Source: a virus. From it: DNA of 33,440 nucleotides. Shown here one piece after another: positions 3,975-33,440 of the stretch; the first letter of the stretch is position 1; every line of letters begins with the position of its first letter. Below the pieces are notes generated by a model that had not been told where the DNA came from, did no database searches, and worked only from the letters and a program-made list of their open reading frames with translations. The position numbers were made by a program, and so were the translations under genes. The stretch spans positions 1-33,440 of the IMG/VR virus record IMGVR_UViG_3300030109_002517. The stretch is one strand, 5' to 3'.

Positions 3975-3975
3975 G

Positions 3976-17200: not shown

Positions 17201-19961
17201 ATTGCTTGGTGATCCGAATGCCGACAGAAGCAAGATTATAAAACAAAGAGCGATTGTTCAGGAGTGGCAAAGCCTGTACGAAAGAGCCAACCCTGTCGCA
17301 GGGTATGTAGAAGTTGACGGGGAAAGACGGCCTTATCGTTTGCTTCCAGAAAGAACAGTAGAAAACGAAAAGGGTGACACAATTATGGGTTACCCTGAAA
17401 CAATAGAGTTTTTCCAAGAAGGCACAGACCAAGAGCATGAACTTGTGCGTGAGTTCGCAGAGGAGTGGGCTGATCTCAACGCTCACATGATTCAGTTTGC
17501 AGTTGATACCGGAATGCTTAGTCAGGATCGCGCTGACATCCTAAAGAACATGGCTTTTGTGCCGTTCTATCGGGATCAAGGCTATGACAACGACACGATG
17601 TTGTACAACCCTGACAACAGAACAGTGCAGGAATCAAACCGTGAAGCAGCTAACGACGACCCGGTTCTTCGCGGACAGATTCTTCTAAACAAAGCTATTC
17701 AGGGAAGCGTTGCTCCGATAAGCCAAGATTTGTTTGCAAACTTAAGAGCAAATGTTTCAGGTATTGTCCGCGATGGCATGCGCAATGTAGCAATGACCCG
17801 GACTATTCGAGACGAGCTTAGAAACGGAACAGCCATAGAAGTCATAAGGCCAAGCCTGCAAGAGTTAAATCGCCAGAAGTTTGTTAACGAGCAAATAACA
17901 AAACTTAGAAAGAAAGGAGCAAGGAGAACCGCTCAAGAAGAAACCTTGTTTAACGACTTGCAGTTAGAAAAGGTGGGCTTAGACGAGGTTATTGCAGAAA
18001 AACAAAAAGCATTCAAGAAGCAAGAAAGAGAGTTGAACCTAGCAGGGTTCTCATCAATAGAGGTCATGGTGCAGGGCGTTCAACCAGAAGCAGTTATGCA
18101 ACTTGATGAGAACGGAAACCCTGTGCATGAAGGTAGGCCGATGGCAGAGCAGGGTGAAACAAAAATCTACCGTGTTGTAGACCCGGCTCTTTCTCAGGCC
18201 ATGATGGACATTGGCTTTAGTCCAATGCAAGCTATTGAAGATTTCTTTGGCAAGACTCTTGGTATAAGCCCTAAGTTTTCTCACGGTCTAGCCAAGCTTC
18301 TGGTCGGATCCTCTAGGTTTCTTAGAGAGACTGTGACACGGTCGCCTCCCTTCATGTTAAAAAATATCATGAGGGATGCTATGCAGGCTTCTGTCATTTA
18401 TGGCGGAAATCCGTTTGTGCTTGCCGGTAAAATTATTAAGAACACCGTGACGCCCGGATTGGTTGAACAGGCTGAGGCTCGTGGGTTAGGTATTGCCGTT
18501 GACCAAGCATTCGATGAAGCAGATGGGCGCACCTCTGTGCGGGCAAACTGGGATAGTCAAATACCAATTGTTGGTTCCGTGTGGAACACGCTTGGACGAA
18601 TGGGCAAGCAGTCAGAAGTTGCTACTCGCATGGCTGTGTACGACATGGCTTTGGCAAAAACAGATGGCAACGCGGCAGAAGCGTTAACACAAGCTATAGA
18701 GATCATGAACTATGGTCGCCGTGGATCAAGCCGAATGTTTGCAACTATAGCTGCTATGTCTCCATTCCTAAATGGTCGGATGCAGGGCTTAAGCGTTCTT
18801 GTAAGAAACCACTTGGGATCACTAGACTCGCCCGGCATTATGATGGGCGAAGATGGTATGGCTTTAGACCCAAAGGTAGAGGAAAGGTTAAGACGACAGC
18901 AGGCCCTGATGCGTGGCAGCTTGATTATGCTGGCTACCCTAGGGTACTACCTCATGATGAGGGACGACGAAGAGTACAAGAACGCTCGTGAAGACACGAA
19001 GAATGATTGGTGGCTTATTCCGTTAGGGCGAGACGAAGAAGGTAAGACGAGACTTGGTTTTAAAATACCAATACCGTTTGAGGTGGGTCTGATTTACAAG
19101 GTTATTCCTGAGCAAATGTTCAGGGCTATATCAGAAGAAGAACATGACTTTGTCGATGTAGGCAGCGAAGCGTTTAGGCAGTTAAAGAACACTTTGTTCA
19201 TGGACATGCGTCCACAGCTAATACGTCCAATGCTTGACGCTATGAGTAACCGTGATGCATTCCAGCGTGACCAGATCGTGCCCTCGTGGATGGAGAACTC
19301 TGTCGCAGCAAGTGAACAGTACAATCCCTACACCAACATGATGGCGAGGCTGATTGGCGACAAGCTAGAGAACATACCTGTCTTGAATAAGATGAGTGCT
19401 CTTACATCTCCCATGAAACTAGAGTACATGATGCGTCAGTACACTGGAACTATTGGTGCTTATGGAATGGCTATGGCTGATCGCGTTGCGCGTGAGGTTA
19501 TGGATGAAAACATCGCTGGAACCTCTGCTGACTTTGGCTTCTCGCAAGACACATTCGCACAGATGCCTATGCTTGGCGACCTCTTTTATAGCACAGTAAA
19601 GGGTGGCGGCTACCAAGAAGACTTCTACGAAACCATGGAGCAAATGGATCACCTGATCACGACCATGGGTCAAATTGAAGACAGTGAAGGCGGCGTAGCA
19701 GCGTTGCAGTATAAGGAAGAAAACATAGGCATGTTCCGTCACAAACGCCGCTTACAGTATTTCGACAGGCGCATGAAGCGTTACAGGGAACAAAGAGACA
19801 GAGTGTTTAACAGGCCAGACCTCAGCAAAGATGAGAAACGAAGGATGCTGCACAGAATGTTTGAGCAGCGTGACGATATGCTTTCAGACATGTTAAGAAT
19901 CATGGCAGAAATAAGACGAGACCGAAGTGCAACTGAACGATTGTTTGGAGTTGAACCGTAA
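11220..19961 (+). CDS. Giant polyvalent virion protein: Tudor-like repeats, HExxH metallopeptidase motif, LPD38-like C-terminus
   Basis: This 2913-residue protein is the largest gene in the window. The N-terminus (VDLPDGTYIDIPDDM...) is typical of ejected phage giants. Gly/Ala-rich hydrophobic helices lie at about 127-173 and 198-218. Two SH3/Tudor-like units lie at about 567-652 (VSHPEYGLGEVV and VNHKSLGQGVVTDV). Long Gln/Glu coiled coils follow to about 1100. HEGAH at 1513-1517 matches the zinc metallopeptidase HExxH motif, and TEETSVHILEA 60 residues later could supply the third ligand. Residues about 2355-2745 resemble the LPD38 domain of large polyvalent proteins (RSPPFMLKNIMRDAMQASV; NYGRRGSSRMFATIAAMSPF). 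It is probably packaged and ejected with the DNA, the T7 gp16 place. No lysozyme or transglycosylase motif was found. Domain names are by eye. Confidence 0.8.
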   Translation: MPDRVDLPDGTYIDIPDDMTNEARIELQKMIDNEFGTSHHQTLYTGLQGGPTRSSASSPIEESGGTLLGSAWEGIKSIPRGARQFGLMAAQGWEGIRTPDEDTDREKELRQRMEDLMMEIDPRYRDSNLVNVGMGLGQVAGMMGIGGTASLLGAGAVGATAITGAATALMGAGEQSSRIAEFEESTGQDVSAAKEVMAMGMGLGIGLSEVALGPMAKFGKAIGVAKRSGAPLRQVLADQGENVIERGLVGSVLRQAGEEALQEGAAGFAQSATARALYDDQALVGGGAAALKEALIGGQVGGVVEASTKLLTRAYAGRRGAQIRRLLGKKYEEKLANGEFDTQDINDLLQDLDEDTELGARNRELRDSVVRRDEDTGEFVVHEDEAGLIAQNNQKFVEENDRLHDKYLNGEISWETYTEASDQLIERSGNLKRELEILAATYNAQAKGLLDRGPQQITPSMAPPPVTDEPNVEALAPSVTTDGRDLVDNVKAVLRRSDDDIEIDARETIQRRINEQRTVQTEQRAKIKQQEEKIAYQEAQLARRQELEAAVEDTVIVTPANTEAGSRVSHPEYGLGEVVQSGQPVLVPQLDEKGNPKRDKNDRLLTQNRLVGRVVNHKSLGQGVVTDVKGGGVSVKFGDDKPKRIKADFLTDAETNESLEAELETQQNAGRLMVQFDNEAEPRVVSTLTSGDLTSAEMQDRLETLRADGKRKGSIRRANLNLTNLRKKFLKKLGEEQGSGVIENTNVGASRQQSPNKQQAERLDLIEQAQAELETARQAVENLRSEEQRILNNLRAGISKNPLTAVPVQGRARQESSQEIADIVERIEQVRNGPWRGAATEAEVVNIQREAVALQVEQQLLRNEGRPETDPELQAINDRLMELEATLNVLDQQDSRGLLESQTAFDSFVIPEGLRYKDFESATDRTLSTKDPSGLNAKGKKLAENFGVDEAQMLATIKEYRATRDRVESLQKELEVLDAQLNELDPSIQLASDRVTLSQQQQELETIQNEELFPELEGVETTLTGIESELADPDSRSDTPLLLLRKQFEQLRKQEDAADLTALEERLATAEQRQALRGLLDLARTEGGMPALSPRQVKRYVQDILSGGVLVRPTPVLEIESLVGEPIKKRIPRRKGRVDPSKPLTKRQEAEQLHSSVRNSWLYGDTRTPTPLALDSEQAGLDAAEKVIYHTLGIGSLMEIADGLENSGAYDKPVPDNWVGPSFGQLGKAEFINFRKKLEKAKYEITAEHIFELLKLKGIPAPFGNLANFERSPFFRDLVFTTVADPDTDLIADVKWKDLAEGEKQAVLARVLNTPSRLRVDQEGVLTYAVGRVGDPALRDQAKRTLAGSVDEVAVRVESDYNVRIEGNYARIDDGQLGPFKSEQQKLEQAEGLEEARQRIERFKTAVEKRLRKMKITAIPMFTANVDGVYAQIEDVIANGTFEYETDPNTGRVKPKLDSNGRVIYRPGYEDGAVASLRNHGTRIMYNISQIEAKYGKDWDTKMDEIVRDLTVHEGAHIHFLRDLLTETERKSLEKFGKKEGYVPASVSQEAHNKKLTWRQYVKELYPELSEAALTEETSVHILEALASGKLAASKTAGIIGKIKRTQLGIFSAIFQSAAEADINSVMQVFERTQNVDLMKSRQKRKADQKGLASLRLVERADPEDLRALRKAVKENNQQQIDEISDRILLKRQEFSDERSPMQRLQESLMTELRARRQIEGNPSNVIEPILNAKAIEAGEIDIDSLNAYFRFRDGREPPFVMPTGEADKRSWRIKFQKSLFALSGKTVDMLDNTKSDGGYVDTGTSAAEAIIEKLDAHNEYVSKKTGKKVRIKTEKDWKEMMQQSGKERFVTRFFDQRIPMLKSQIRERKRRAELASELGDYESALQMLSDQVAISAWRWADNAMNFVSMIVSQGPLQYSNGGFSLNKEAYGREAAGRGDIPVKALKDIEAPLLQVERGQEMASRYLNALRVRDVKTEVHKAELELQAAELEFELLGDPNADRSKIIKQRAIVQEWQSLYERANPVAGYVEVDGERRPYRLLPERTVENEKGDTIMGYPETIEFFQEGTDQEHELVREFAEEWADLNAHMIQFAVDTGMLSQDRADILKNMAFVPFYRDQGYDNDTMLYNPDNRTVQESNREAANDDPVLRGQILLNKAIQGSVAPISQDLFANLRANVSGIVRDGMRNVAMTRTIRDELRNGTAIEVIRPSLQELNRQKFVNEQITKLRKKGARRTAQEETLFNDLQLEKVGLDEVIAEKQKAFKKQERELNLAGFSSIEVMVQGVQPEAVMQLDENGNPVHEGRPMAEQGETKIYRVVDPALSQAMMDIGFSPMQAIEDFFGKTLGISPKFSHGLAKLLVGSSRFLRETVTRSPPFMLKNIMRDAMQASVIYGGNPFVLAGKIIKNTVTPGLVEQAEARGLGIAVDQAFDEADGRTSVRANWDSQIPIVGSVWNTLGRMGKQSEVATRMAVYDMALAKTDGNAAEALTQAIEIMNYGRRGSSRMFATIAAMSPFLNGRMQGLSVLVRNHLGSLDSPGIMMGEDGMALDPKVEERLRRQQALMRGSLIMLATLGYYLMMRDDEEYKNAREDTKNDWWLIPLGRDEEGKTRLGFKIPIPFEVGLIYKVIPEQMFRAISEEEHDFVDVGSEAFRQLKNTLFMDMRPQLIRPMLDAMSNRDAFQRDQIVPSWMENSVAASEQYNPYTNMMARLIGDKLENIPVLNKMSALTSPMKLEYMMRQYTGTIGAYGMAMADRVAREVMDENIAGTSADFGFSQDTFAQMPMLGDLFYSTVKGGGYQEDFYETMEQMDHLITTMGQIEDSEGGVAALQYKEENIGMFRHKRRLQYFDRRMKRYREQRDRVFNRPDLSKDEKRRMLHRMFEQRDDMLSDMLRIMAEIRRDRSATERLFGVEP

Positions 19962-20377
19962 TGGCTGTTAACGGGATTGTGTGGCACCTGCGCAGAGAGC
20001 TACAAAAAGGTGACGCGATATGGGGACGCCTGTACAACGATGCTGATGGTGCAAGCTTTTGGACTATTGAAAACTCAGCCAAGCCTATCCCTGAAGGTCT
20101 GCACCCTTGCGTTAAAGACTACTACCACCGTGGCGATTACCCGACGTTTGAAATTATTGTAGAAGATCGGGATCGTTTGCTGTTTCATGCAGCCAACTAT
20201 GCATCTGAGCTTGAAGGGTGCATAGCTCCCGGCAAGGACAGAGGTGAGACAGAAGATGGCAAGCTTGCTGTGTGGAACAGCAAGAAAGCATTCAACGAAT
20301 TCTGGGATCTCGTACAAGACGAAGAAAAGTTTTTACTTATGATCGAAGACGCAACCGAGGATAGCAGCGATGAGTAG
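19961..20377 (+). CDS. DUF5675-like protein, lysis-cassette candidate
   Basis: This 138-residue soluble protein has the core of the DUF5675 family: a short beta start (GAIWGRLYND-type turn, W34), TIENSAKPIPEGLHPCVKDY around residues 36-55, and FHAANYASELEGCIAPG at about 75-92. In that family 'H.GN....EGCI..G' forms a conserved Cys/His pocket, and many members sit beside holin genes. The acidic C-terminus (EDATEDSSDE) is unusual. The start overlaps the giant gene's stop (TAATG) and the stop overlaps the holin-like gene by 8 nt. A peptidoglycan-directed role, perhaps replacing a classical endolysin, fits the context but is not proven. Confidence 0.7.
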   Translation: MAVNGIVWHLRRELQKGDAIWGRLYNDADGASFWTIENSAKPIPEGLHPCVKDYYHRGDYPTFEIIVEDRDRLLFHAANYASELEGCIAPGKDRGETEDGKLAVWNSKKAFNEFWDLVQDEEKFLLMIEDATEDSSDE

Positions 20378-20603
20378 ATTTTTGAGTGTGTTCAAGGACA
20401 ACAACGATTGGAATGAAAAGACAATTGTTGGTGCAGTTTCTTTTGCGATGATGGTTGTCACTGCCGTCGTTGATGTAACAACCGGGGTGTGGGGGATGGA
20501 GCTTCAGGTTCAGGAGTTTATCTACAACAGCTTTCTGATTATAACCCTAGGGTGCTTCTCAATCAGCGGCGTTGAAAAGTGGGCACCTAAACGAGACGAC
20601 TGA
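20370..20603 (+). CDS. Holin-like two-TM membrane protein
   Basis: This 77-residue protein has a charged N-terminus (MSRFLSVFKDNNDWNEK), a first membrane helix at about 19-41 (IVGAVSFAMMVVTAVVDVTT), a short loop, a second at about 50-67 (FIYNSFLIITLGCFSISG) and a basic tail (EKWAPKRDD). Size, two membrane helices and position after a DUF5675-type gene and before small membrane coiled-coil genes all fit a holin that permeabilises the host inner membrane at lysis. It overlaps both neighbours (8 nt upstream; TGATG downstream). Family membership cannot be proven without a search. Confidence 0.65.
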   Translation: MSRFLSVFKDNNDWNEKTIVGAVSFAMMVVTAVVDVTTGVWGMELQVQEFIYNSFLIITLGCFSISGVEKWAPKRDD

Positions 20604-20998
20604 TGCCTGCCCGGTTGAACGATAACACTGAACTCACAATGCCCTTGCGCAACCTCCTGTCCATTGTGGCAGGGGTTGCTATCGGTGTGTGGGCGTACTT
20701 CGGGATTGTCGAGCGACTCAATACAATTGAAACCTCTTTGTTAATGATGGAGAACGAGGTTGAGGCGAACTCTGACTTTAGGGTACGATGGCCCAGAGGA
20801 GAGCTAGGCTCTCTGCCTGCTGATGCTGAACAATTCATGTTACTAAACCACCTCGACACGCAACTTGAAAAGCTTATTGAAGAGGTGGAGTCGGGCAGTG
20901 CTCCATTTGATCAACAGCAAGAGCTTACGCTTGAGTGGTATGCGCAGCGAATATCTGAGCTTGAGTCGCAAGTCGAAGAGATAAGGGCAAGACGGTAA
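20603..20998 (+). CDS. Membrane-anchored coiled-coil protein, lysis cassette
   Basis: This 131-residue protein has one membrane helix at about 15-37 (PLRNLLSIVAGVAIGVWAYF), a linker with a conserved-looking RVRWPRGELGSLPADAEQFM segment, and a C-terminal coiled coil ending ELESQVEEIRARR. I recall similar proteins starting at MPLRN in marine phages; here that would be ATG 20639, but no ribosome binding site is visible there, while ATG 20603 overlaps the previous stop. The shape (short cytoplasmic start, one helix, periplasmic coiled coil) resembles an inner-membrane spanin or holin partner. Role inferred. Confidence 0.65.
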   Translation: MPARLNDNTELTMPLRNLLSIVAGVAIGVWAYFGIVERLNTIETSLLMMENEVEANSDFRVRWPRGELGSLPADAEQFMLLNHLDTQLEKLIEEVESGSAPFDQQQELTLEWYAQRISELESQVEEIRARR

Positions 20999-21288
20999 TG
21001 GCTAACGGTATATCCAAGGCAACATCCCTTCCTGCAATAAGCGTAGGCTTTGCTATCTCCATACTGGTTGCCACATGGGTGGCAGGCGGACGGTTCGAGG
21101 CCATGGAGCGAGCAGATGCACAGGCTATGGTAGAGATCGCTGATGTCGCAGATCGCCAAAGCAAGTACATCGGGACAACCGGCTTGCTGACCGAGCAGAT
21201 CGACGAGCTTGCTGACAGGGTAACAGAACTTGAACAACAACTGGCACTGTTACGAGTTAGGCTTGAGCTTGGCGGTGACAACCAGTAA
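20998..21288 (+). CDS. Membrane-anchored coiled-coil protein, lysis cassette
   Basis: This 96-residue protein has a hydrophobic helix at about 12-30 (PAISVGFAISILVATWVAGG), a helical linker, then a leucine-rich coiled coil at about 64-92 (EQIDELADRVTELEQQLALL). Start and stop both overlap the neighbours as TAATG. Topology resembles small spanin-like or anti-holin-like phage membrane proteins, and also the coiled-coil fragment at the window's left edge. No sequence motif allows a firm function. Confidence 0.6.
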   Translation: MANGISKATSLPAISVGFAISILVATWVAGGRFEAMERADAQAMVEIADVADRQSKYIGTTGLLTEQIDELADRVTELEQQLALLRVRLELGGDNQ

Positions 21289-25437: not shown

Positions 25438-27189
25438 TTAGAAATCCCACCTGCCATCATCAACCTCTTCGGTAATGAAATCAGTCCACCTTCCAGTAGC
25501 TTTGTCGAACTCCAACTGGCAGTGTCCATTCTTGCCGATCCAGCCCCACCGCACCTTCCAGACATGACACTCCGGTGGCTCTAGGTCTTGGGGGTGTCGC
25601 CATGCAGTGATGCCTAGGTCAGCCTTAGCGAACCACGCCGCTGACCCTGCAATGTCGTGCCCAGTGATCAGCACTTTCTTCTCTGACCTACGGTCAGGTG
25701 AGACCTTGGTGGGGTGAGCTATGAAGAAGACGTGCACATCATGAGACTTAGCCCACTTCTGTATCTGCGTCAGCATCTTGCTAATCGCATCTGTTTCGCG
25801 GTCACTCTTTGGTAGCTCAATAAAATTGTAAGGATCAATCACCAAGAGCCTGCAACCAAGCTGCATCACTGCGGCTGAGGCCGTGTCTAGAATACCCTCA
25901 ATCGTTGTCGGTCCATCTAGTGAGTGGTCCATGAACAAGAAGTGATCGTCAATGTACTCGTATGCGTAGTCCTTCTTAGAGCACTCCATCCTAGTAGAGG
26001 GGCCTTCAAAGAATGGCTGGTTCATTAGCTTCTGTGCTAACTGGGCCATGTGCAGGGCGGGTGGCTTCTCGAATGAACAGTACACTGTCTTGAGACCTTC
26101 CTGCCTAGCCAGATTCAAACAGATCTGGTCAATCAAATCACTCTTACCCGACGACGGAAAGCCGGTTACTACAGTCATCATGCCCGGCACGATCTGGATA
26201 AGCTGATCCAAGGATCTCAAACCAGTAGAGCTACCACTAATCTGTCCCTCTTCGTACAGAATATCGTATTCTTTTTTAAAGTCCCTAGCTCTATGCAATC
26301 CCACGGTCGGAAACGGATCACACACCTCCAGTTGTCCAAGCAAGTAAGAGGCTCCCTTTAGTTGTAACGCCTCTGAGGTGTCCTTGCATTCCCCTAGGTC
26401 TAGAGTCCAGAGCCTGCTCGTGCCGACACGTCTCTTGATCTCTTCCTCTAACGCACCGCCAGCCTCATCATTGTCAAAGCAAAGGATAATTCTCTTAGCA
26501 CTTTCAAGTTGATCTTTAGCTCGCCAGACATACTGAAACTTCTTGTCTTCACGGGGGTCAACCTTGCCATCTTTAACCTTCGAGGGTGCCCCATTGGGGA
26601 TGCTCATCACCGTCAGGTTATCTGGGAGGTCGCACGACATCCACGACAGGGCGTCCATCTCACCCTCAACTAGCAGTATGTCGTTGCCCTTCTTGTAGTT
26701 ATGAAGATTGTAGAAGTCTTCGCAAACATTCTGTTGGCTGTAGTACTTGTTAGCACCTGCGCTCCGCCACTTAATGGCAGTAACCCCATGGCTGTCTTTG
26801 TACACAAAGCCTACCGCAGGCACAGCTTTCCCATTGAATGTGTAGGTGCCCTGAATCGTGTGCTCATCCATGACACCTTCTGAAATCTTGCGACTTAGTA
26901 GGTAGTCCTTTGCTATCTCGTTAGGCTCAGACTGCTTCGGTAGCGTAATGGTTTTTCGTTCTCGCATCTGCGGACTGAACCCGTTTGTTTTGTGCATCCA
27001 CCCTCCACTGGTGTCACAGTGATGACAGTGGTATCTGACACCGTCAGAATCCACCTTAATTGATAGCGATTTGTCGTGCTTGTTCTTAGACCTAGTGTGG
27101 TGGCAGGCCGGACATTTCCGTTTGTGTTGCCCAATAGACAACCTCTCCCCTAGAAGTTGGATGTCACTAGGAACGTCTGCTTTTAACAT
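25438..27189 (-). CDS. T7 gp4-like DNA primase-helicase
   Basis: This 583-residue bifunctional replication enzyme unwinds DNA and probably makes RNA primers. An N-terminal zinc ribbon has C26/C29 and C55/C58. A TOPRIM core carries VEGEMDA at 174-180 and CFDNDEAG at about 250. A RecA/DnaB-type helicase domain follows, with Walker A GFPSSGKSDL at about 345, Walker B LLVIDPYNF at about 450, and a sensor-like HVFFIAHPTK. Length and domain order match gp4/Twinkle proteins. The start ATG 27189 is preceded by AAAGGCAGGG. It lies 10 nt downstream of the RusA-like gene on the same transcript. No DNA polymerase is encoded nearby. Confidence 0.93.
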   Translation of the reverse strand: MLKADVPSDIQLLGERLSIGQHKRKCPACHHTRSKNKHDKSLSIKVDSDGVRYHCHHCDTSGGWMHKTNGFSPQMRERKTITLPKQSEPNEIAKDYLLSRKISEGVMDEHTIQGTYTFNGKAVPAVGFVYKDSHGVTAIKWRSAGANKYYSQQNVCEDFYNLHNYKKGNDILLVEGEMDALSWMSCDLPDNLTVMSIPNGAPSKVKDGKVDPREDKKFQYVWRAKDQLESAKRIILCFDNDEAGGALEEEIKRRVGTSRLWTLDLGECKDTSEALQLKGASYLLGQLEVCDPFPTVGLHRARDFKKEYDILYEEGQISGSSTGLRSLDQLIQIVPGMMTVVTGFPSSGKSDLIDQICLNLARQEGLKTVYCSFEKPPALHMAQLAQKLMNQPFFEGPSTRMECSKKDYAYEYIDDHFLFMDHSLDGPTTIEGILDTASAAVMQLGCRLLVIDPYNFIELPKSDRETDAISKMLTQIQKWAKSHDVHVFFIAHPTKVSPDRRSEKKVLITGHDIAGSAAWFAKADLGITAWRHPQDLEPPECHVWKVRWGWIGKNGHCQLEFDKATGRWTDFITEEVDDGRWDF

Positions 27190-27199
27190 GCCCTGCCTT

Positions 27200-27625
27200 T
27201 TAAACTAGTTTACTAAGAGTACTTATAATCTCATCTTGTTTTTCTACTGGTCCTACTAGTAAAACAGTTCTAGGGTTTTCCTTATCTAGACCATGCAAAA
27301 CATATTTCATTTTGATTGATCTATCATTCTTGTAGATCTTGTCTTGAAGCAGATCTAGTATCAGGCTTTCATCAAGATCTGGTCTCCTAGTGCAATAGTA
27401 GATTTTCATAGCAATAGCGAGATCACCCTCTAACAAATCCTCTAGCACTGGGCACTGCAAATCGACAGCCTTCTTGTACAGAAGAGCCTTCTTCGATTTA
27501 ATAAACCGGGGCTTGCCACCAATCGAAACCAAACGTCTTGAGTTTGCTTTCGAGGCTGGTTCTCCCTTGATCGTGAGAGCGATGATATCTCTGTCGCACC
27601 CCTTGCGCAATACTTGTTGGGTCAT
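27200..27625 (-). CDS. rusA: RusA-like Holliday junction resolvase
   Basis: This protein has 141 residues from ATG 27625, preferred over 27631 because AAAGGA is then correctly spaced. RusA-family features: an N-terminal GEPASKANSRR segment, RRPDLDES at 80-87 with acidic pair D83/D85, and KIYKNDRSI with D101, corresponding to the three metal-binding aspartates. RusA homodimers cut four-way DNA junctions made by recombination or replication. The gene is visibly richer in A+T and in CTAG tetranucleotides than its neighbours, a sign of different origin. It is first in the minus-strand operon, just behind a promoter at 27654-27682. Confidence 0.85.
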   Translation of the reverse strand: MTQQVLRKGCDRDIIALTIKGEPASKANSRRLVSIGGKPRFIKSKKALLYKKAVDLQCPVLEDLLEGDLAIAMKIYYCTRRPDLDESLILDLLQDKIYKNDRSIKMKYVLHGLDKENPRTVLLVGPVEKQDEIISTLSKLV

Positions 27626-27653
27626 TACCATCCTTTCGTCTGTCGGGACGAGG

Positions 27654-27682
27654 ACAATAGCAGCACAAAATCTTTATGGCAA
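27654..27682 (-). promoter_or_regulatory. Sigma70-like promoter, leftward, for rusA/helicase
   Basis: On the minus strand, TTGCCA (27677-27682) is followed after 17 nt by TATTGT (27654-27659), in the 72-nt gap between the divergent RusA-like gene and the plus-strand gene at 27698. The predicted start site is about 20 nt before the RusA start. No equally good rightward promoter is visible in the gap. Confidence 0.6.
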
Positions 27683-27697
27683 GAAAAGGAGTTTTGC

Positions 27698-27961
27698 GTG
27701 AGTGAAACGGCCACACGCTTCAGGGTTTACGAGGATGCGGGACCGCCTCCAAGAAAGTCTGGACCACCAGTTAAGTGGGGCTACCTGCCGATGCATGAGA
27801 TCGCTGTTAACGACATGATTGAGTTGACGATGACCGACGAAGAGGTTCGGGAGAAGATCAACGCAATCAGAAGTTATGCAGGTAGGATGACCAGAAAGAC
27901 CGGAAAAAAATTTTCTATCAGAGTTACTGACTACGGCATTGGGATCTGGAGAACCAAATGA
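27698..27961 (+). CDS. Small phage protein, first of a paralogous pair
   Basis: This protein has 87 residues from GTG 27698, with AGGAG at 27687-27691. The upstream in-frame ATG at 27614 would overlap the divergent RusA gene and its promoter, so it was rejected. The fold signature is GYLPMHEIAVNDMIELT...K(K)FSIRVTDYGIGIWR(T). The same order (P-hydrophobic-x-x-(L/I)xVxD, then a helix, then Kx(F/Y)xxR..(D/E)...G(I/V)WR) is repeated in the next gene. I recall this small alpha/beta protein in many tailed phages without known function. The stop overlaps the next start (ATGA). Confidence 0.7.
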   Translation: MSETATRFRVYEDAGPPPRKSGPPVKWGYLPMHEIAVNDMIELTMTDEEVREKINAIRSYAGRMTRKTGKKFSIRVTDYGIGIWRTK

Positions 27962-28212
27962 CAGAAGCAACAAAGGATGGAGTGAACATCCTGAAGGGGG
28001 TTCCAATACCTCACAGGACAGAGAGACGCACCTATCCCTTCGACAGGTTAGGGGTGGACGATTGCTTCATGATAGAGTGTGAGGACATGAAGCATGAGCG
28101 CAGTGTTCGTTCTTCGGCTACACGATGGAACGACAACGATGAGGGACGCAGGTATATCGTCAGGCGCATGCCTGAGACTGATAGAACGGTTGGGGTGTGG
28201 AGAGTTTCTTGA
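27958..28212 (+). CDS. Small phage protein, second of a paralogous pair
   Basis: This 84-residue protein aligns with the preceding gene over YPFDRLGVDDCFMIE, the SSATRWNDNDEGRRYIVRR helix-strand and GVWRVS at the end, while the N-termini differ. Such tandem duplication is seen in phage early regions. No catalytic motif. It overlaps both neighbours (ATGA upstream; TTGA with the nuclease gene at 28209), so it is translated with the recombination genes. Confidence 0.7.
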   Translation: MTEATKDGVNILKGVPIPHRTERRTYPFDRLGVDDCFMIECEDMKHERSVRSSATRWNDNDEGRRYIVRRMPETDRTVGVWRVS

Positions 28213-29036
28213 AGCTCACTAACCGTTACGGCGCACCAGACTCTATCGTAGACGCTATCCGGAATGACCCATACACAAAGGATGGGGCAGATTTCAGCGT
28301 GACAGAGTTAATCAAACCGCCACAAATACGCCGGTTGTGGCACCTGCATGAAGACGACATCAGTGTTGATGTCAGAGAAGAGATCTGGAAACTGCTTGGC
28401 AAGGGCGTTCACAATGTCATTGAACAAGCTGACAGTGAGGGCACCAAAGAACGTAGGTTCCATGCAGAGCATGACGGATCCACGATCAGTGGTGCCATTG
28501 ATCTGTTAGGTGACGACGGATCTATCACGGATTACAAAGTCACCTCAGCCTACAGTGTACAACGTGGGTTGAAGGAGGATTGGGAAAAGCAGTTGAACAT
28601 GTATGCGTGGTTGGTCCGGCAGAACGGGATCACGGCTACCAAGCTGAACATCGTGTGCATATGCAGGGATTGGATGCGTTCGAGGGTGGGGAAGTACGAC
28701 TACCCAGAATCTCCTGTCGTGGTAATGTCTGTGCCTATGTGGAGAGACGAGCGGCAGGATGATTACATAGCCCAACGGGTAAAGTTGCACACCCAAGAGC
28801 GCACCATTCCCTGTACACCTGAAGAGCGATGGGCTCGTGGTGCTTACCAAGTCAACGGTAGTGGCAAGCCACGCTCATTCGACACCATGAGAGAGGCGAC
28901 AGACTACATCAACAAACAGAAGACGGGCAACTTCTCCATCGTAGATGGACAGGCGAAGTACATCCGTTGTGAGAGTTGGTGTGAGGTCGCAGAATTTTGT
29001 CCACAGTGGAAAGGAGAGAGAGGAAATGCCCGCTAA
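28209..29036 (+). CDS. PD-(D/E)XK nuclease, RecB/Cas4-like exonuclease
   Basis: This protein has 275 residues from TTG 28209, which has GGAG 6 nt upstream (28199-28202) and gives MKLTNRYGAPDSIVDAIRND, the usual start of this family; GTG 28197 is less likely. Nuclease motifs: GKGVH with H68, GAIDLL with D98, DYKVTS with D108 and K110, then QLNMYAWL, a RecB-type QxxxY motif. The C-terminus has C254, C258 and C264 (CESWCEVAEFC), recalling the iron-sulphur cysteines of Cas4/AddB nucleases, although no N-terminal partner cysteine is obvious. It probably resects DNA ends for the annealing protein encoded next. Confidence 0.85.
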   Translation: MKLTNRYGAPDSIVDAIRNDPYTKDGADFSVTELIKPPQIRRLWHLHEDDISVDVREEIWKLLGKGVHNVIEQADSEGTKERRFHAEHDGSTISGAIDLLGDDGSITDYKVTSAYSVQRGLKEDWEKQLNMYAWLVRQNGITATKLNIVCICRDWMRSRVGKYDYPESPVVVMSVPMWRDERQDDYIAQRVKLHTQERTIPCTPEERWARGAYQVNGSGKPRSFDTMREATDYINKQKTGNFSIVDGQAKYIRCESWCEVAEFCPQWKGERGNAR

Positions 29037-29736
29037 GAGTTTAACAGCAGGCAGTATCTGGAAGACATTGAGTTCGATTAATGTCAACGAGTTCACAGAA
29101 GAGAAGGGGGGTCTGACTTACTTGAGTTGGAGTCATGCCTACCGTCTCATGATGGAGAACTATCCAGAGATGTCGATCAAGTGGCACGGCACGACTGACT
29201 CGCAGGGTGTGACGAGGGATGTCACTTACTACGAGGGCGGTACGGCTACCGTATCATGCACTGTTCGTATCGGGGATGTTGCCCGTGAGATGTGGTTACC
29301 TGTGATGGACTACCGCATGAAGAGCATTGCTCATCCCTCAAGCAGGGATATATCTGACGCGAAAATGCGTTGCATGGTCAAGGCGTTCAGCCTGTTTGGC
29401 CTAGCGAACTACCTCTATTCCGGTGATGGCCTGCCGATGGAAGAGGCGAACGGCGTTACCAAGGCACCGGCAAAGAAGCCGATCAAGGCTAAGGCCAAGG
29501 CTCAGAAGAAGGCTGATCCTGTTGAGGAACAGGTGCAAGCACTCAGAGATCTGGCGAACCAAGTAGTTCAGGGCGGGTGGGATCCCGATCCGGCAACCGC
29601 ATCAGAGATCAAGGCGGCTATCGCTGGACGTGACCAGAAGGAGATAGCCAAGGTCATGATCAACCTGCAAAAACTTTCTAAAGCGGCACTTCAAATCAAC
29701 AACGACACAGTTCAAGGGGAACTGATTGATGCCTGA
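29026..29736 (+). CDS. DUF1071-type single-strand annealing protein (Sak/Rad52-like)
   Basis: This protein has 236 residues from ATG 29026, behind a strong AGGAGAGAGAGG, overlapping the nuclease gene by 11 nt. The N-terminal half matches DUF1071/Sak-like recombinases: LSSINVNEFTEEKGGLTYLS then WSHAYRLMMENYPEM, strands with VSCTVRIGD, and SSRDISDAKMRCMVKAFSLF before GLANYLYSGDGLP. Proteins of this group anneal complementary single strands in phage recombination. A Lys/Ala-rich linker (about 150-170) leads to a helical C-terminal part. With the nuclease before it and the SSB-like gene after it, this is a Red-type module. Confidence 0.85.
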   Translation: MPAKSLTAGSIWKTLSSINVNEFTEEKGGLTYLSWSHAYRLMMENYPEMSIKWHGTTDSQGVTRDVTYYEGGTATVSCTVRIGDVAREMWLPVMDYRMKSIAHPSSRDISDAKMRCMVKAFSLFGLANYLYSGDGLPMEEANGVTKAPAKKPIKAKAKAQKKADPVEEQVQALRDLANQVVQGGWDPDPATASEIKAAIAGRDQKEIAKVMINLQKLSKAALQINNDTVQGELIDA

Positions 29737-30040
29737 TTACAAGAACCAACCGAAGCTAGACTTCGCGATCTTCAGTAACAAGTTCCGGCAGAGTGACCGG
29801 CACCCATCAAAGACAGGGACCATTGAGTTCACGGAAGAGTTTCTCCGTGCGATGGTGAACAAGGCGAAGGAAGGCGCGATGCCCAAGCTGAAGGTGGCTG
29901 TCTGGGATCGCACCTCCAAGGGCGGCATGCCTTACGAGAACGCTCGCCTTGAGATTGACCTAGCCAGCACTGGATCTGGTCCAGTCAAGGTCGAGGCTGA
30001 ACCGGCGGCTGACGCAGAGGGTGATGGCCTCCCCTTCTGA
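29729..30040 (+). CDS. Putative single-stranded DNA-binding protein with acidic tail
   Basis: This 103-residue protein starts at ATG 29729 after AGGGGA and overlaps the annealing protein by 8 nt. Residues 8-80 are a beta-rich domain with basic and aromatic residues (LDFAIFSNKFRQSDRHPSKT; VAVWDRTSKGGMPYENARLE). The C-terminus is flexible and acidic, ending AEGDGLPF, similar to the D-D-D-I-P-F tip by which SSB proteins recruit partners. Position after a recombinase supports ssDNA binding. The core does not match a classical OB-fold SSB by eye, so it may be a divergent or unrelated binding protein. Confidence 0.6.
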   Translation: MPDYKNQPKLDFAIFSNKFRQSDRHPSKTGTIEFTEEFLRAMVNKAKEGAMPKLKVAVWDRTSKGGMPYENARLEIDLASTGSGPVKVEAEPAADAEGDGLPF

Positions 30041-30248
30041 GGAGAAAGTTAAATTTCTCCTGAGAGTAGAGGCGGGCACCCTTGAGACTTTGCGAAGCAC
30101 TGCAAGTGTCAGGGGTGTCAGCCTGTCTCAGTTACTGCGAGACATACTGAATGACTATGTGCAGGCAATGGATCGTCCGATCATAGAGCACCGAGTAGAT
30201 CCGTACAGTGTCCCTAAAAAGAAAAAGGAAAAAAATTGGTGGGAATAG
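30024..30248 (+). CDS. Ribbon-helix-helix (Arc/CopG-like) DNA-binding protein
   Basis: This 74-residue protein starts at ATG 30024; GTG 30021 is an alternative. VKFLLRVEAGTLETLRSTAS forms the strand and first helix, and RGVSLSQLLRDILNDYVQAM the turn and second helix, which is the Arc/MetJ/CopG fold; these dimers bind operators through the strand. The C-terminus is very basic (PKKKKEKNWWE). It overlaps the neighbours by 17 and 13 nt. It is a good candidate to regulate the early genes and to bind one of the repeat sets in the noncoding region, which is inference. Confidence 0.75.
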   Translation: MASPSEEKVKFLLRVEAGTLETLRSTASVRGVSLSQLLRDILNDYVQAMDRPIIEHRVDPYSVPKKKKEKNWWE

Positions 30249-30715
30249 AGGACAACAACGGTGATGCGATATCTTGCATTGTCTTAATGATTGATAGTTT
30301 AGCCAGTGAGAACAGGGCTGACGTAACTGTCCAGACCTATCACAACGATGACTGTGAGATCTTTCGCATGATGCAGGATGAGTCTGTTAGCAACGAGTCA
30401 ATCAATCAGCACGAGCCTACTTCGAGTGAGGCTCGCAACCATCTGTACTCATGCAACTGCGATGCAACGATAGAGACTACGTTTGAGCGCGATGACGGTG
30501 AGACACTAATGGTTCAGTTCGTGCTGAGTGATGTGAAAGAAAAGCATCCTTGGCTAGACGACCCAGAGCAGACTAGGGACATGATTGAGTTAGCCTCAGA
30601 CGACAAGCTTGCGCCTCTGATTGAAGAGATGAAGCCGTTGTTCAAGAAGCGGATGGGCAGGAGAGTTCCTATGGGTATCGGTGGGTTCAACCTAAAGAGT
30701 GACACGGTACATTGA
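30236..30715 (+). CDS. Hypothetical acidic protein
   Basis: This 159-residue acidic protein has several Asp/Glu/Asn-rich stretches (IEDNNGDAIS; NDDCEIFRMMQDESVSNESI) and a more basic end (KPLFKKRMGRRVPMG). It has no membrane segment and no recognised motif. TTG 30236 follows AGGA by 6 nt; GTG 30239 is the alternative. The strong net negative charge would also fit a DNA-mimic type inhibitor, but nothing specific shows this. The stop overlaps a membrane micropeptide start (TTGA). Confidence 0.6.
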   Translation: MVGIEDNNGDAISCIVLMIDSLASENRADVTVQTYHNDDCEIFRMMQDESVSNESINQHEPTSSEARNHLYSCNCDATIETTFERDDGETLMVQFVLSDVKEKHPWLDDPEQTRDMIELASDDKLAPLIEEMKPLFKKRMGRRVPMGIGGFNLKSDTVH

Positions 30716-30795
30716 TTGCCTTGCTCGTGATCCTAGCACTTTGCTTTTGTATCTATGAGATGGCAAAGGCAATAGACAACGAGACTGAGAGATGA
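30712..30795 (+). CDS. 27-residue single-TM micropeptide
   Basis: TTG 30712 to TGA 30793-30795 encodes MIALLVILALCFCIYEMAKA followed by IDNETER: one hydrophobic helix and a polar tail. The start overlaps the previous stop (TTGA) and the stop overlaps the next start (ATGA), exactly the junction style of the surrounding genes, which argues that it is translated. No separate ribosome binding site is strong, so coupling from the upstream gene is likely. Its role would be at the inner membrane; unknown. Confidence 0.5.
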   Translation: MIALLVILALCFCIYEMAKAIDNETER

Positions 30796-31175
30796 AGGAA
30801 AGTACTAGGAAATTTTTAGATGATCTGGACAGGTTGTGCGCGTATGCAGGCGGGCCACCCTCGCCACCGACAGGGCCAGAGGTAGGGAATTACTCAGAGG
30901 AAGACGGCAAGTGGAGGCGGTATCTGGGGTGGAGGTATTCGGAGCGGGGCGAGAAGTGTTGGAGCTACCTTGAGACCATGGCCCTTGATGCCTTGAGGCG
31001 TGGACACAAGCACTTCTCTGTGCGTGATGCCGTTGCTAGGTACAGGACAAATGAAGGAGAGGGAATCACCAACTGCTTTACTCCATGGTTGGCTGACGAA
31101 TTGGTTGAAACTTATCCCGCTTTGCTTGATATTATATCACGGAAGCGAAGGACGAAAACAAAAGATGACGATTGA
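30792..31175 (+). CDS. Hypothetical early protein
   Basis: This is a 127-residue soluble protein. The N-terminus is helical (STRKFLDDLDRLCAYAG), then a Pro/Gly-rich linker (GGPPSPPTGPEVG), a Trp/Tyr-rich middle (WRRYLGWRYSERGEKCWSYL), and helices ending in a basic-acidic tail (KRRTKTKDDD). The middle and last helices (HFSVRDAVARYRTNEG) might form a DNA-binding-like unit, but no family is recognised. The start overlaps the micropeptide stop (ATGA). The next 96 nt have no gene. Confidence 0.6.
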   Translation: MKESTRKFLDDLDRLCAYAGGPPSPPTGPEVGNYSEEDGKWRRYLGWRYSERGEKCWSYLETMALDALRRGHKHFSVRDAVARYRTNEGEGITNCFTPWLADELVETYPALLDIISRKRRTKTKDDD

Positions 31176-31271
31176 CAGAGGGGCCTATGCCGGTGGTACC
31201 TCCCTACCACGGCGAGCCTTAAATAACCACAGAATGAACTACGTTTTCACGAACGTGGGGTGCCCTCTGTC

Positions 31272-31652
31272 ATGACTATGTCAACTACTGATATAGATTT
31301 AAGTATTGCGGCAGAACTCAAGAGGCGTGGCGATATGCCATTGGCTATGTTTCGTGACCTTGTCGGTCGCGTCTCGGACATTGATCCTCATGGCGACCTA
31401 GCCTTGGTGAACCAAGCTTGGAATTGTCTCCTGTGTATGAACGTTAGCGATGAGTTCATTGAACTTGTGCGTAGATTACACGAGAAGGGACTAATCGACT
31501 CACGGAGGATGAGTCACATGGAGGCGGTTATGGTGCATGCATATGACGGCGTTGAAACGTACAAGTTACCTGTCGCAAACAAGATCCCTAAAAACGGCTA
31601 CAAGGAGAAACGGTGGGCTCCTGTGCTAGTCTGGGCCGGAAAGGATGAATAA
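31272..31652 (+). CDS. Hypothetical early protein
   Basis: This 126-residue protein starts at ATG 31272, after GGGGTG at 31257-31262 (GTG 31260 and ATG 31278 are alternatives). It is an all-helical soluble protein: DLSIAAELKRRGDMPLAMFR, VNQAWNCLLCMNVSDEFIEL and MSHMEAVMVHAYDGVETYKL, with a basic Pro/Lys end and final VWAGKDE. The first gap of note in this operon (31176-31271) precedes it and holds two weak hairpins, GTGGTA/TACCAC and ACGTT/AACGT. Function unknown. Confidence 0.6.
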   Translation: MTMSTTDIDLSIAAELKRRGDMPLAMFRDLVGRVSDIDPHGDLALVNQAWNCLLCMNVSDEFIELVRRLHEKGLIDSRRMSHMEAVMVHAYDGVETYKLPVANKIPKNGYKEKRWAPVLVWAGKDE

Positions 31653-31809
31653 GTTGAGCAAGCTCACGCTACTTGGGGCCTGCGTAGCTCTCGGGGTTCG
31701 GTACGCTGTGAAGTACGGATGGCTGTGCGGATACACGCACTGGCAGGTAGAGCGCAGTAGGATGAGACGCGAAGATCTGCTCGAAAGGCTACGAGAGAGA
31801 GGCTATTGA
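31645..31809 (+). CDS. Small basic hydrophobic protein, 54 residues
   Basis: ATG 31645 to TGA 31807-31809 encodes MNKLSKLTLLGACVALGVRY and on to a basic helix ending RREDLLERLRERGY. Residues 4-20 form a short hydrophobic stretch, perhaps a membrane anchor; C13 and C28 are present. It overlaps the previous gene by 8 nt with GGAAAGG just upstream, and it is the last gene before the strong terminator at 31872. Function unknown. Confidence 0.55.
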   Translation: MNKLSKLTLLGACVALGVRYAVKYGWLCGYTHWQVERSRMRREDLLERLRERGY

Positions 31810-31871
31810 CCGGCGAGTGTACTCACTCATAGGTTAATTAAAACGCCGTGTTTCCCCTCCTTTGCGCGGCT

Positions 31872-31923
31872 CCCCCTAGGCTACGGTTTGGTATTCCTCT
31901 CCCCCGTACCCTAGGGGGTTTTT
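31872..31923 (+). terminator. Strong intrinsic terminator, rightward
   Basis: CCCCCTAGG (31872-31880) pairs perfectly with CCTAGGGGG (31910-31918). One mismatch is followed by TACGG (31882-31886) with CCGTA (31904-31908), giving a 14-bp-plus stem around a 17-nt loop. TTTTT follows at 31919-31923. It ends the plus-strand early operon and lies 4 nt from the stop of the convergent gene at 31927. On the minus strand there is no T-run, so it is one-way. Confidence 0.9.
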
Positions 31924-31926
31924 AGT

Positions 31927-32172
31927 TTACAGACTAATAAGCTTGAGGATTAGCTTGCGGATCCAGTTGATCTCGCCGCAGTTAGAATGGAGCATGGGTC
32001 CGGCCACGTTGTCGGGATTGTCCCACGCCTCTAGCATGGCCCGACACTCCTGACGTTGACACCCATAGAGCTTGAGTGCCCCTGAGTGTACGATCTCAGT
32101 GGGCTTGTGTCCCCTCACCACTGCGATGAGGAGACCACGCCTCAGCAACCGTCTTGCACCTCTTGTTCTCAC
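31927..32172 (-). CDS. Small basic hypothetical protein
   Basis: This 81-residue protein starts at GTG 32172, overlapping the upstream stop (GTGA). The N-terminus is very basic (MRTRGARRLLRRGLLIAVVR), the middle has C38, C43 and C65, and the C-terminus is a hydrophobic helix (INWIRKLILKLISL). The cysteines are not in a standard zinc-finger spacing. It may contact the membrane or DNA. It ends only 4 nt from the rightward terminator's T-run. Confidence 0.5.
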   Translation of the reverse strand: MRTRGARRLLRRGLLIAVVRGHKPTEIVHSGALKLYGCQRQECRAMLEAWDNPDNVAGPMLHSNCGEINWIRKLILKLISL

Positions 32173-32399
32173 AGCCCTTCTCTTGCGTCATCACGAACAT
32201 CGTCCAGCTTGAGATACAAACTGTTCTCAATGTCCGCAAGCATCCGCTCTGACTCTTCTGTCAGTTGAGCGATTAGAATCTGAGAGCGATCACCTCCCTG
32301 CTTAGCAGATGTCAGCATCATCTCTCGTGTCCGGGCATACACCTTAACCTTACTCATAAAGGTGTTGATCCACGTCTGGTGCTCATGCCTAATGGTCAT
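32169..32399 (-). CDS. Small helical hypothetical protein
   Basis: This 76-residue charged, all-helical protein (HQTWINTFMSKVKVYARTRE; QILIAQLTEESERMLADIEN) ends in an acidic-basic tail. AGGAAG lies 6 nt before ATG 32399. It is first of a two-gene minus-strand unit behind a promoter at 32434-32461. No family recognised; the helical heptads suggest a dimer or bundle. Confidence 0.6.
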   Translation of the reverse strand: MTIRHEHQTWINTFMSKVKVYARTREMMLTSAKQGGDRSQILIAQLTEESERMLADIENSLYLKLDDVRDDAREGL

Positions 32400-32433
32400 G
32401 TCTGCTTCCTCGCTCTGAATTAAACATGCTTGA

Positions 32434-32461
32434 AATCTATATCACCACATCAACATGTCAA
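32434..32461 (-). promoter_or_regulatory. Sigma70-like promoter, leftward
   Basis: On the minus strand, TTGACA (32456-32461) is followed after 16 nt by TAGATT (32434-32439). It lies about 35 nt upstream of ATG 32399. As at the other leftward promoters, CC precedes TTGACA. It overlaps an imperfect inverted repeat (ATATCA at 32439-32444 with TGATAT at 32466-32471), a possible operator. Confidence 0.6.
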
Positions 32462-32472
32462 GGGTTGATATC

Positions 32473-32501
32473 TTGCACGGAACCACCGCCCTGTTTAACA
32501 T
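32473..32501 (+). promoter_or_regulatory. Weak promoter candidate for terminase small subunit
   Basis: TTGCAC (32473-32478), a 17-nt spacer and TAACAT (32496-32501) lie 28 nt before ATG 32529. Only TTG of the -35 and four of six -10 bases fit, so this is a guess supported mainly by position in the divergent intergenic gap. Confidence 0.3.
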
Positions 32502-32528
32502 GGGTGTGAACCTACAGCCGGAGACACT

Positions 32529-32966
32529 ATGACGAGGGGCACTACCCTAACACCAAAGCAGGCCGCGTTCTGTGCGTTTGTAGCACGAGGGGACACCCAG
32601 ACGGAGGCGTATATCAAAGCCTATGATGTGCAGGGGGGAAGCAGACGAAGCGCATCCAACGAAGCGACCAAGCTCTGTCGGATGGACAAGATCAAGACAC
32701 GAATCCAAGAGCTTAAAGACGACAGCGCAGTAGCTAAACGAGAACAGAAGAAACTCTCGAAAGCATGGATCATACAAAGCCTTCAGGCCGAAGCAAGCAA
32801 CACCGACAACGCTCCAAGTGTGAGAGTCAGGGCACTCGAAATCCTAGCCAAGACTGAGAAGCTGTTCGACGATAGCACGTCAGTGAATATCGTACATAGG
32901 AATAGCGAGGAGATCTACCGAGAACTACAGGAAGCTCTCAGTGGTCTCGACTTCGATATGAATTGA
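32529..32966 (+). CDS. terS: Terminase small subunit
   Basis: This 145-residue protein shows the Terminase_2/XtmA-type layout: LTPKQAAFCAFVARGDTQTE with AYIKAYDV, a helix-turn-helix (SRRSASNEATKLCRMDKIKT), a coiled linker (RIQELKDDSAVAKREQKKLS) and a C-terminal oligomerisation part with ARALEILAKTE-like helices (VRALEILAKTEKLFDD). Small terminases form rings, recognise the packaging site and hand DNA to the large subunit. GGAGA at 32519-32523 is the ribosome binding site. No large subunit follows within the window: at least 474 nt of noncoding DNA comes next. Confidence 0.85.
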   Translation: MTRGTTLTPKQAAFCAFVARGDTQTEAYIKAYDVQGGSRRSASNEATKLCRMDKIKTRIQELKDDSAVAKREQKKLSKAWIIQSLQAEASNTDNAPSVRVRALEILAKTEKLFDDSTSVNIVHRNSEEIYRELQEALSGLDFDMN

Positions 32967-33071
32967 TATACCCTGTAGATGGTAGGCAGAGAACAAGCGC
33001 AGGGGCTCTTTCGCACGGGTTTTTTCGGCAAAACAGGGTCAAAGTTTCGCAACTCACCAAAAATTCAGGGC

Positions 33072-33100
33072 TTGACAGGGAAGTAAAACTAGTTTACTAG
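33072..33100 (+). promoter_or_regulatory. Promoter candidate, rightward
   Basis: A perfect TTGACA (33072-33077), 17-nt spacer, then TACTAG (33095-33100), only 3/6 to the -10 consensus. The -10 half sits in a near-palindrome (AGTAAA-A-CTAGTTTACT, 33082-33098), so it may be an operator-controlled promoter. Confidence 0.4.
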
Positions 33101-33149
33101 TAGAAAGAACTGTTTAAGTAGATAAACTGGTAGAAATACCTAGTAGAAA
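33097..33149 (+). repeat. Three short direct repeats CT(A/G)GTAGAAA
   Basis: Copies at 33097-33106, 33127-33136 and 33140-33149 (the second has G in place of A) lie in the AT-rich part of the control region. The same CTAGTAG / CAGTAGAAA words occur close together in the minus-strand coding sequence near the 3' end of the RusA-like gene, which may reflect shared base composition rather than function. Confidence 0.55.
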
Positions 33150-33198
33150 AGAGATAGGTAGTTTAAATAGATTACCTTTTATACTAGGAGAGTGGTCC

Positions 33199-33398
33199 GA
33201 CGCCCGTACCTCGGCTGATTAAGGTTGACGCCCGTACCTCGGATCACTATAAGAGAGGTGTCATGGCTAGGTGGGCTGATATCTGAGTCCAGTGGCCCCC
33301 TTAGCATGACTTAAACGACCATGGACAACCTTCGCTCTGACGTTGGTGGCCTCTCACGTCCGTACCTCTGACGCCCGTACCTCTCACGTCCGTACCTC
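33199..33398 (+). repeat. Five-copy 14-bp repeat array (G/C)ACG(C/T)CCGTACCTC
   Basis: Copies: 33199-33212 and 33227-33240 (GACGCCCGTACCTC, both followed by GG), 33355-33368 (CACGTCCGTACCTC), 33370-33383 (GACGCCCGTACCTC) and 33385-33398 (CACGTCCGTACCTC). The first two start 28 bp apart; the last three start exactly 15 bp apart and alternate between the two variants. All are in one orientation. Ten of 14 positions in the core are invariant or nearly so. This looks like an iteron or operator array. Confidence 0.9.
33225..33253 (+). promoter_or_regulatory. Strong sigma70-like promoter overlapping repeat copy 2
   Basis: TTGACG (33225-33230), exactly 17 nt, then TATAAG (33248-33253): 5/6 at both boxes. 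Repeat copy 2 (33227-33240) covers part of the -35 and most of the spacer, so any protein that binds the repeat would block or shape this promoter. Behind it, ATG 33263 stops after 7 codons, so the transcript either has a very short leader peptide or codes beyond the window. Confidence 0.7.
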
Positions 33399-33440
33399 AG
33401 TCATATATATAGTGTGTGCGTGATACCTGTTGACACATAT

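Follow-up and report, generated by a model that had tools for sequence, protein, structure and literature searches.

The question raised by this locus is whether a frame of 27 codons, lying between two longer genes of an uncultured bacterial virus, is a gene and, if so, what its product might do. The stretch analysed (here, the window) is a virus record of 33,440 bases. Re-examination of the list of open reading frames confirmed the placing of the ORF in the original prediction, at 30712-30795 with four-base overlaps on either side; the frame starts with the TTG at 30712, its TGA ends at 30795, and the deduced peptide is MIALLVILALCFCIYEMAKAIDNETER. The locus comprises the following features:

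30236..30715, + strand: upstream 159-aa gene, TTG start, probable translational donor; present in 13 IMG/VR contigs
30712..30715, + strand: TTGA, start codon of the peptide over the stop of the 159-aa gene; same in L001, L002 and L010
30712..30795, + strand: very probable membrane micropeptide gene, 27 codons, TTG start; ORF with homologs in L001, L002, L010 and L003, under purifying selection
30715..30774, + strand: hydrophobic segment, codons 2-21; peak 17-residue Kyte-Doolittle mean 2.55
30769..30792, + strand: codons 20-27, charged tail with conserved Ala-Ile 20-21 and Glu 24; invariant alignment columns A20, I21 and E24
30792..30795, + strand: ATGA, stop of the peptide over the start of the 127-aa gene; pairing with this gene seen in the window only
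30792..31175, + strand: downstream 127-aa gene (ORF), with no family in family searches

The TTGA and ATGA junctions had been taken as evidence of a gene, and both exist; they turned out to be weak evidence by shuffles, and the ATGA shared with the 127-aa gene is particular to the window. The whole window has, on its + strand, 526 start codons that share bases with a TGA. Eleven of these lead into TM-like ORFs of 20-60 aa, and the peptide ORF, read from two starts, accounts for two of the eleven. The region 27000-33440 contains two such TM-like ORFs, both of them this peptide, where shuffles averaged 0.6 and in 200 rounds never exceeded 3, and a dinucleotide shuffle of the 78 bases of the peptide left the frame open and TM-like in 62 of 20,000 cases. 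Because any gene end in ATGA, GTGA or TTGA gives an overlapping start, the junctions are not deciding evidence, and we rejected the two overlaps as proof of a real gene, the counts of overlap plus hydrophobicity not going beyond chance in these shuffles. We thus take the peptide as a gene because of its conservation, not because of overlaps or hydrophobicity.

Among the 13 IMG/VR contigs with the 159-aa gene, four also contain the peptide near it: L001 (33 aa), L002 (60 aa), L010 (25 aa) and L003 (26 aa). We ran a profile of all five peptide copies against 37,834 frames of at least 15 aa in 98 sequences (97 loci, many of them repeat stretches, plus the window) and found nothing convincing for the peptide in the stretches read of the other nine contigs, several of which are fragments. 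The 159-aa protein of the carriers is 61-99% identical to that of the window, and that of the nine non-carriers 46-57%. Loss of the frame in close relatives, which had been put forward as the observation that would speak against the gene, was looked for, and the frame was kept in all four relatives with at least 61% identity in the neighbouring 159-aa protein. In L011 and L012 the end of the 159-aa gene is the same, including a junction-like TTGA, and the frame there reads LIAPVLKGSLAKGFPWGLYRGGLPVAS, with no hydrophobic helix, so the peptide is dispensable in some lineages.

Homology is clearest for L010, which a left-out profile made from the window, L001 and L002 recovers at E=1.7e-7, the next unrelated frame coming at E=0.26. 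That of L003 is weaker, because every profile built without L003 misses it, and it rests on the comparison with L010, the start-anchored score and the position. The L003 and L010 peptides are 48% identical, and their start-anchored score is 46, whereas among 1,327 TM-like starts no unrelated one scores above 18; shuffles preserving helix and tail composition reach 46 in 9 of 100,000 trials, and 708 of 100,000 reach the score of 34 obtained for L003 against the window copy. Additionally, L003 has an ATG exactly at the aligned start position, six bases past AGGAG, and this makes the TTG more credible as the true start of the other copies. Two scans of IMG/VR with peptide profiles, of 273 candidate stretches each, confirmed only known contigs (3 and 1) and L003 failed in them, so that more distant peptides may be missed.

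Comparison of synonymous sites in relatives, suggested as a check when the gene was predicted, bore the prediction out: replacements were fewer per site than synonymous changes, more weakly for L003 against three of the copies. The pN/pS ratios, which are rough since the peptide has only about 16-17 synonymous sites, were 0.23 for window-L001, 0.28 for window-L002, 0.41 for window-L010, 0.44 for both L001-L010 and L002-L010, 0.33 for L010-L003, and 0.65-0.72 for the window, L001 and L002 each paired with L003; the L001 and L002 peptides differ by two replacements and zero synonymous changes. Fisher tests on rounded counts gave p=0.011 for window-L001, 0.007 for window-L010 and 5e-6 for L010-L003. 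For comparison, pN/pS of the 159-aa gene was 0.17-0.37 in three pairs. The synonymous difference between the window and L010 amounts to 0.61 for the peptide and is higher, 0.99, for the 159-aa gene, and the likeness of the peptides may thus come in part from nucleotide-level constraint or recombination. Since four related viruses keep it, this is very probably a real protein-coding micropeptide gene, as judged from sequence comparison.

The surroundings of the peptide are more variable. In none of the five copies is the peptide farther than 230 bases downstream from the 159-aa gene, and four of them (window, L001, L002 and L010) retain the upstream TTGA; in L003 the peptide sits behind a 67-aa ORF, without a TTGA junction, which indicates that the peptide itself is conserved and not merely the junction. 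On the downstream side, the L001 peptide overlaps by 8 bases a 219-aa gene, and in L002 the frame reads on to 60 aa without an overlapping start and is then followed by the 219-aa gene. An ATGA in L010 and a GTGA in L003 open frames of 38 and 56 codons (possible genes), which cross an RNA-like element, described below, each of them finishing in an ATGA shared with a PDDEXK_14 nuclease gene. The 219-aa gene, for whose product no family was found, is located as follows:

L001 6571-7230 and L002 5904-6563: 219-aa gene, no family, between the peptide and the 127-aa gene; absent from the window

The 60-aa product of the extended L002 frame (5656-5838) contains a CHTCGK motif. The DNA past the L002 peptide also encodes RHEHETWINT in another frame, which resembles a minus-strand 76-aa ORF of the window (32169-32399).

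Identity between L001 and L002 is 100% over 75 peptide bases but falls to 84% for the 159-aa gene and to 62.5% for the last 56 bases of this gene. This contrast suggests a recombination joint where the peptide begins.

As for the product, it had been described as a clean single membrane helix. One hydrophobic segment is indeed present, although "clean" is slightly generous, because in the window Glu16 ends the uninterrupted hydrophobic run after residues 2-15 (14 residues); this run spans residues 2-18 in L010 and 4-21 in L003. Maxima of 17-residue hydropathy were 2.41-2.66 across the five copies, as in segments capable of spanning a membrane. Alignments of the five copies contain six constant residues (Ile2, Leu4, Cys11, Ala20, Ile21 and Glu24), and the part past residue 15 has a net charge of -2 to 0.

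Searches of family libraries did not name the peptide. Pfam gave nothing named above the cut-off, the best being DUF3927 (E=0.14, 12.6 bits vs a cut-off of 25), and no named match appeared in NCBIfam, PHROGs or PDB sequences; tblastn of two peptide copies against INPHARED, up to E=10, and DNA searches of the same collection were equally without match. The unknown-function PHROGs 7696, 4546 and 20768 weakly match the 60-aa version of L002 (E=0.013), L010 (E=0.022) and L001 (E=0.03), respectively, but not the window peptide, and such weak matches of short hydrophobic sequences can be chance. We found no paper on this peptide, or tying it to inhibition of a host protein or to superinfection exclusion, an absence that is not proof.

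Small phage proteins with a single helix are a familiar kind, and the peptide falls within the general class of conserved small single-TM phage proteins by its frame, conserved in 4 of 13 contigs, and its pN/pS. KdpF-type small subunits are likewise a short hydrophobic single helix. CydX, a 37-aa single-helix subunit of cytochrome bd oxidase, is described as able to serve its partner with few fixed residues (PMC6005532), and the peptide resembles it in having one short hydrophobic helix, tolerance of substitutions and acidic residues at the helix end. However, the peptide differs from CydX and KdpF in being phage-borne and without match to either family profile: no CydX or KdpF profile of Pfam or NCBIfam matched any of the five copies at E<=10, in a search with HMMER, whose filters can lose very weak matches. 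MgtR and AcrZ are named as small single-helix membrane proteins of E. coli (PMC6005532), and AcrZ binds AcrB (PMC7267776); the peptide is like both in size and predicted single helix, but no sequence relation to them was found. In being a conserved smORF-encoded protein it is also like those of the GMSC catalogue of small proteins from microbiomes (PMC11364881).

Of the ORFs upstream in the same direction, one matches a phage exonuclease (E=4e-37), another a Sak-like annealing protein (E=1e-36) and a third, weakly, an Arc-like repressor (E=0.0007). Other genes of the window are:

1071-3446: virion structural protein gene, far from the peptide
11220-19961: 2913-aa ORF
32529-32966: terminase small subunit gene, downstream of the peptide (E=1e-13)

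The 159-aa protein had no Pfam match above the cut-off, no strong PHROG match and no named family, nor any match in INPHARED at E<=1e-5, and of 49 stretches of the genome collection that fit its family pattern none was confirmed. Its AlphaFold model has a mean pLDDT of 61 and no Foldseek match in the PDB at E<=0.001, so no function was assigned from it. Searches of Pfam and PHROG found no family for the 127-aa protein, and the ORFs of 1203 aa (3955-7566) and 650 aa (9256-11208) gave no PHROG match at E<=0.01. A 54-aa basic, partly hydrophobic ORF (MNKLSKLTLLGACVALGVRYAVKYGW..., 31645-31809), with no Pfam match above the cut-off, has matches in L003, L010, L014-L016, L032 and L037. At 20370-21288, a 77-aa ORF with two hydrophobic segments is followed by ORFs of 131 and 96 aa with one segment each; these membrane ORFs are a possible lysis group, among which no endolysin was identified.

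The reading that we prefer, and hold tentatively, is that of a genuine phage micropeptide made by coupled re-initiation, whose bitopic helix would tune a larger membrane protein, most likely one of the host, in early or middle infection. No Shine-Dalgarno site was seen close to the TTG of the peptide, and a ribosome ending the 159-aa protein would re-initiate at this overlapping TTG, so that the peptide would be made in step with the 159-aa protein, from what appears to be an operon of recombination-type genes (the exonuclease and the Sak-like annealing protein). The peptide would then enter the cytoplasmic membrane of the host as a bitopic helix, and there a helix face with Leu4, Cys11 and Tyr/His15, together with the interfacial Ala-Ile-x-x-Glu, may touch the larger membrane protein, which would be tuned in early or middle infection much as by the small single-helix subunits of bacteria. 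Early expression is read from gene order alone and is likewise putative. A more specific idea, which we consider doubtful, is that these peptides form a family of helix-only regulators, each mimicking a subunit and entering one host membrane complex by means of a face with an intramembrane cysteine (Cys11, constant in all 5 copies) and a collar of Ala-Ile-x-x-Glu, its dose being set by stop-start coupling to the 159-aa protein.

The peptide might instead serve the 159-aa protein as its anchor or subunit in the membrane, produced in step with it by the coupling. This would agree with the short distance between both in all five copies (at most 230 bases), with the four-base overlap in four of them, and with the failure to find the peptide in the nine contigs with more distant 159-aa proteins; nevertheless, it is rather unlikely, because nine of the 13 relatives have the 159-aa gene without the peptide, the recombination in L001/L002 separated both (100% identity over the 75 peptide bases vs 84% in the 159-aa gene), and another ORF intervenes in L003. 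A superinfection-exclusion peptide, sitting in the host membrane and barring the entry of related phages, would also be small, hydrophobic, patchy among relatives and located in a region of variable gene content. We regard this role, which the original prediction had mentioned, as unlikely: the window peptide matches no named superinfection-exclusion family of PHROG, Pfam or NCBIfam above the cut-off, lies after recombination-type genes, and has no counterpart linked to exclusion in the papers found.

Translation of the frame, rather than its product, could be all that matters if the ORF were a relay by which ribosomes leaving the 159-aa gene reach the next frame, as four of the five copies have a start over the peptide stop (ATGA in the window and L010, GTGA in L003, and the 8-base overlap in L001). 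This is quite improbable, because replacement changes are suppressed, the hydrophobic helix and the Ala-Ile-x-x-Glu are kept, L002 has no overlapping start, and any base but C before the TGA suffices for such an overlap. Small holin-like peptides are of a size that this one can reach and, like it, may consist of a short hydrophobic helix, from which a pinholin- or antiholin-like role in the timing of lysis could be proposed. We find it very unlikely, since the upstream genes (exonuclease, Sak-like and weakly Arc-like) do not place the peptide in a lysis cassette as in holins and pinholins; it lies among DNA-metabolism genes, about 10 kb from the membrane ORFs of 20370-21288, which are the likelier lysis group, and the lone match to a holin PHROG is that of the 60-aa version of L002 (E=0.27). 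Finally, a chance ORF is expected often enough, the shuffles predicting about 0.6 TM-like ORFs with overlapping starts per 6.4 kb, but the homologs, the selection and the aligned start in relatives make it extremely unlikely here.

The RNA-like element that the frames of L003 and L010 cross is also present in the window, downstream of the 127-aa gene:

31176-31269, + strand: three-helix RNA-like element, with a bulged G in the second helix and a TTAAANNACCA linker; shows covariation and ends just before a start codon
33253-33355, + strand: second, weaker copy (22.8 bits, E=0.0095), shared by L001 and L002
Window 31165-31275 (36 codons), L010 7842-7958 (38) and L003 4019-4189 (56): short open frame through the element

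The first copy had no Rfam match, and the element occurs also in L001, L002, L003, L010, L011, L012, L033, L105 and L109. The genes after it vary, being a 130-aa ORF in the window, the PDDEXK_14 nuclease in L003, L010 and L011, and an HATPase-like ORF in L109. A covariance model was seeded with seven sequences (window, L001, L002, L003, L010, the metagenome contig L109, which carries the label Rickettsiales, and L105, a further phage contig) and searched against the window and 77 of 110 loci, the 33 left out being 19 repeat stretches of included records and 14 other contigs; its matches beyond the seeds were L011 and L012 (37.9 bits), L033 (54.3 bits, equal to L105) and the second copies in the window, L001 and L002. 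Of the 23 pairs, 4 vary on both sides in the seed alignment, where pairing holds in 91.4% of cells, vs 35-61% in slid controls; with nine distinct model-aligned sequences, an alignment that leans to the model, these values were 12 of 23 pairs and 94.5%, vs 37-58%. A pattern scan of IMG/VR for the element yielded 10 stretches. L103, L106 and L107, which share one coding-like stretch, and L104, without such structure, were read as chance pattern matches; the covariance model did not match L103, L104 or L110 (from the genome scan).

The short frames of the window, L010 and L003 each end in an ATGA with the next gene, and their 3′ part is alike (..LNNHRMN..VGCPLS), the 5′ part having no single constant frame. 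The 3′ half of the element keeps the reading frame in L003, L010 and L109, but not in L011 (a selection test on this half covered 8 codons only), and the length of the 5′ half differs from that of the window by +1 in L003, -2 in L010, -3 in L011 and -1 in L109. Candidate explanations for the element are an RNA leader, a ribozyme, a DNA structure and a structured RNA with a short frame inside it.

The second copy lies downstream of the terminase small subunit gene, among ACGYCCGTACCTC repeats, of which there are five at 33194-33398 of the window. The sequence GACGCCCGTACCT recurs past the terminase small subunit gene in L001, L002, L003, L011, L013 and L015. These repeats are perhaps origin iterons or regulator sites.

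Judging from its sequence, the peptide looks like a family without match in the libraries searched, and like one more of the many tiny phage membrane proteins. The case illustrates that a gene under the usual annotation limits can be recovered by conservation where overlaps alone cannot decide, and the RNA-like element may be a more general lead than the peptide. Being short and easily cloned, the peptide is a candidate for finding a host membrane target, and, to judge from the putative recombination joint at its start, such peptides may move between phages as cassettes of their own.
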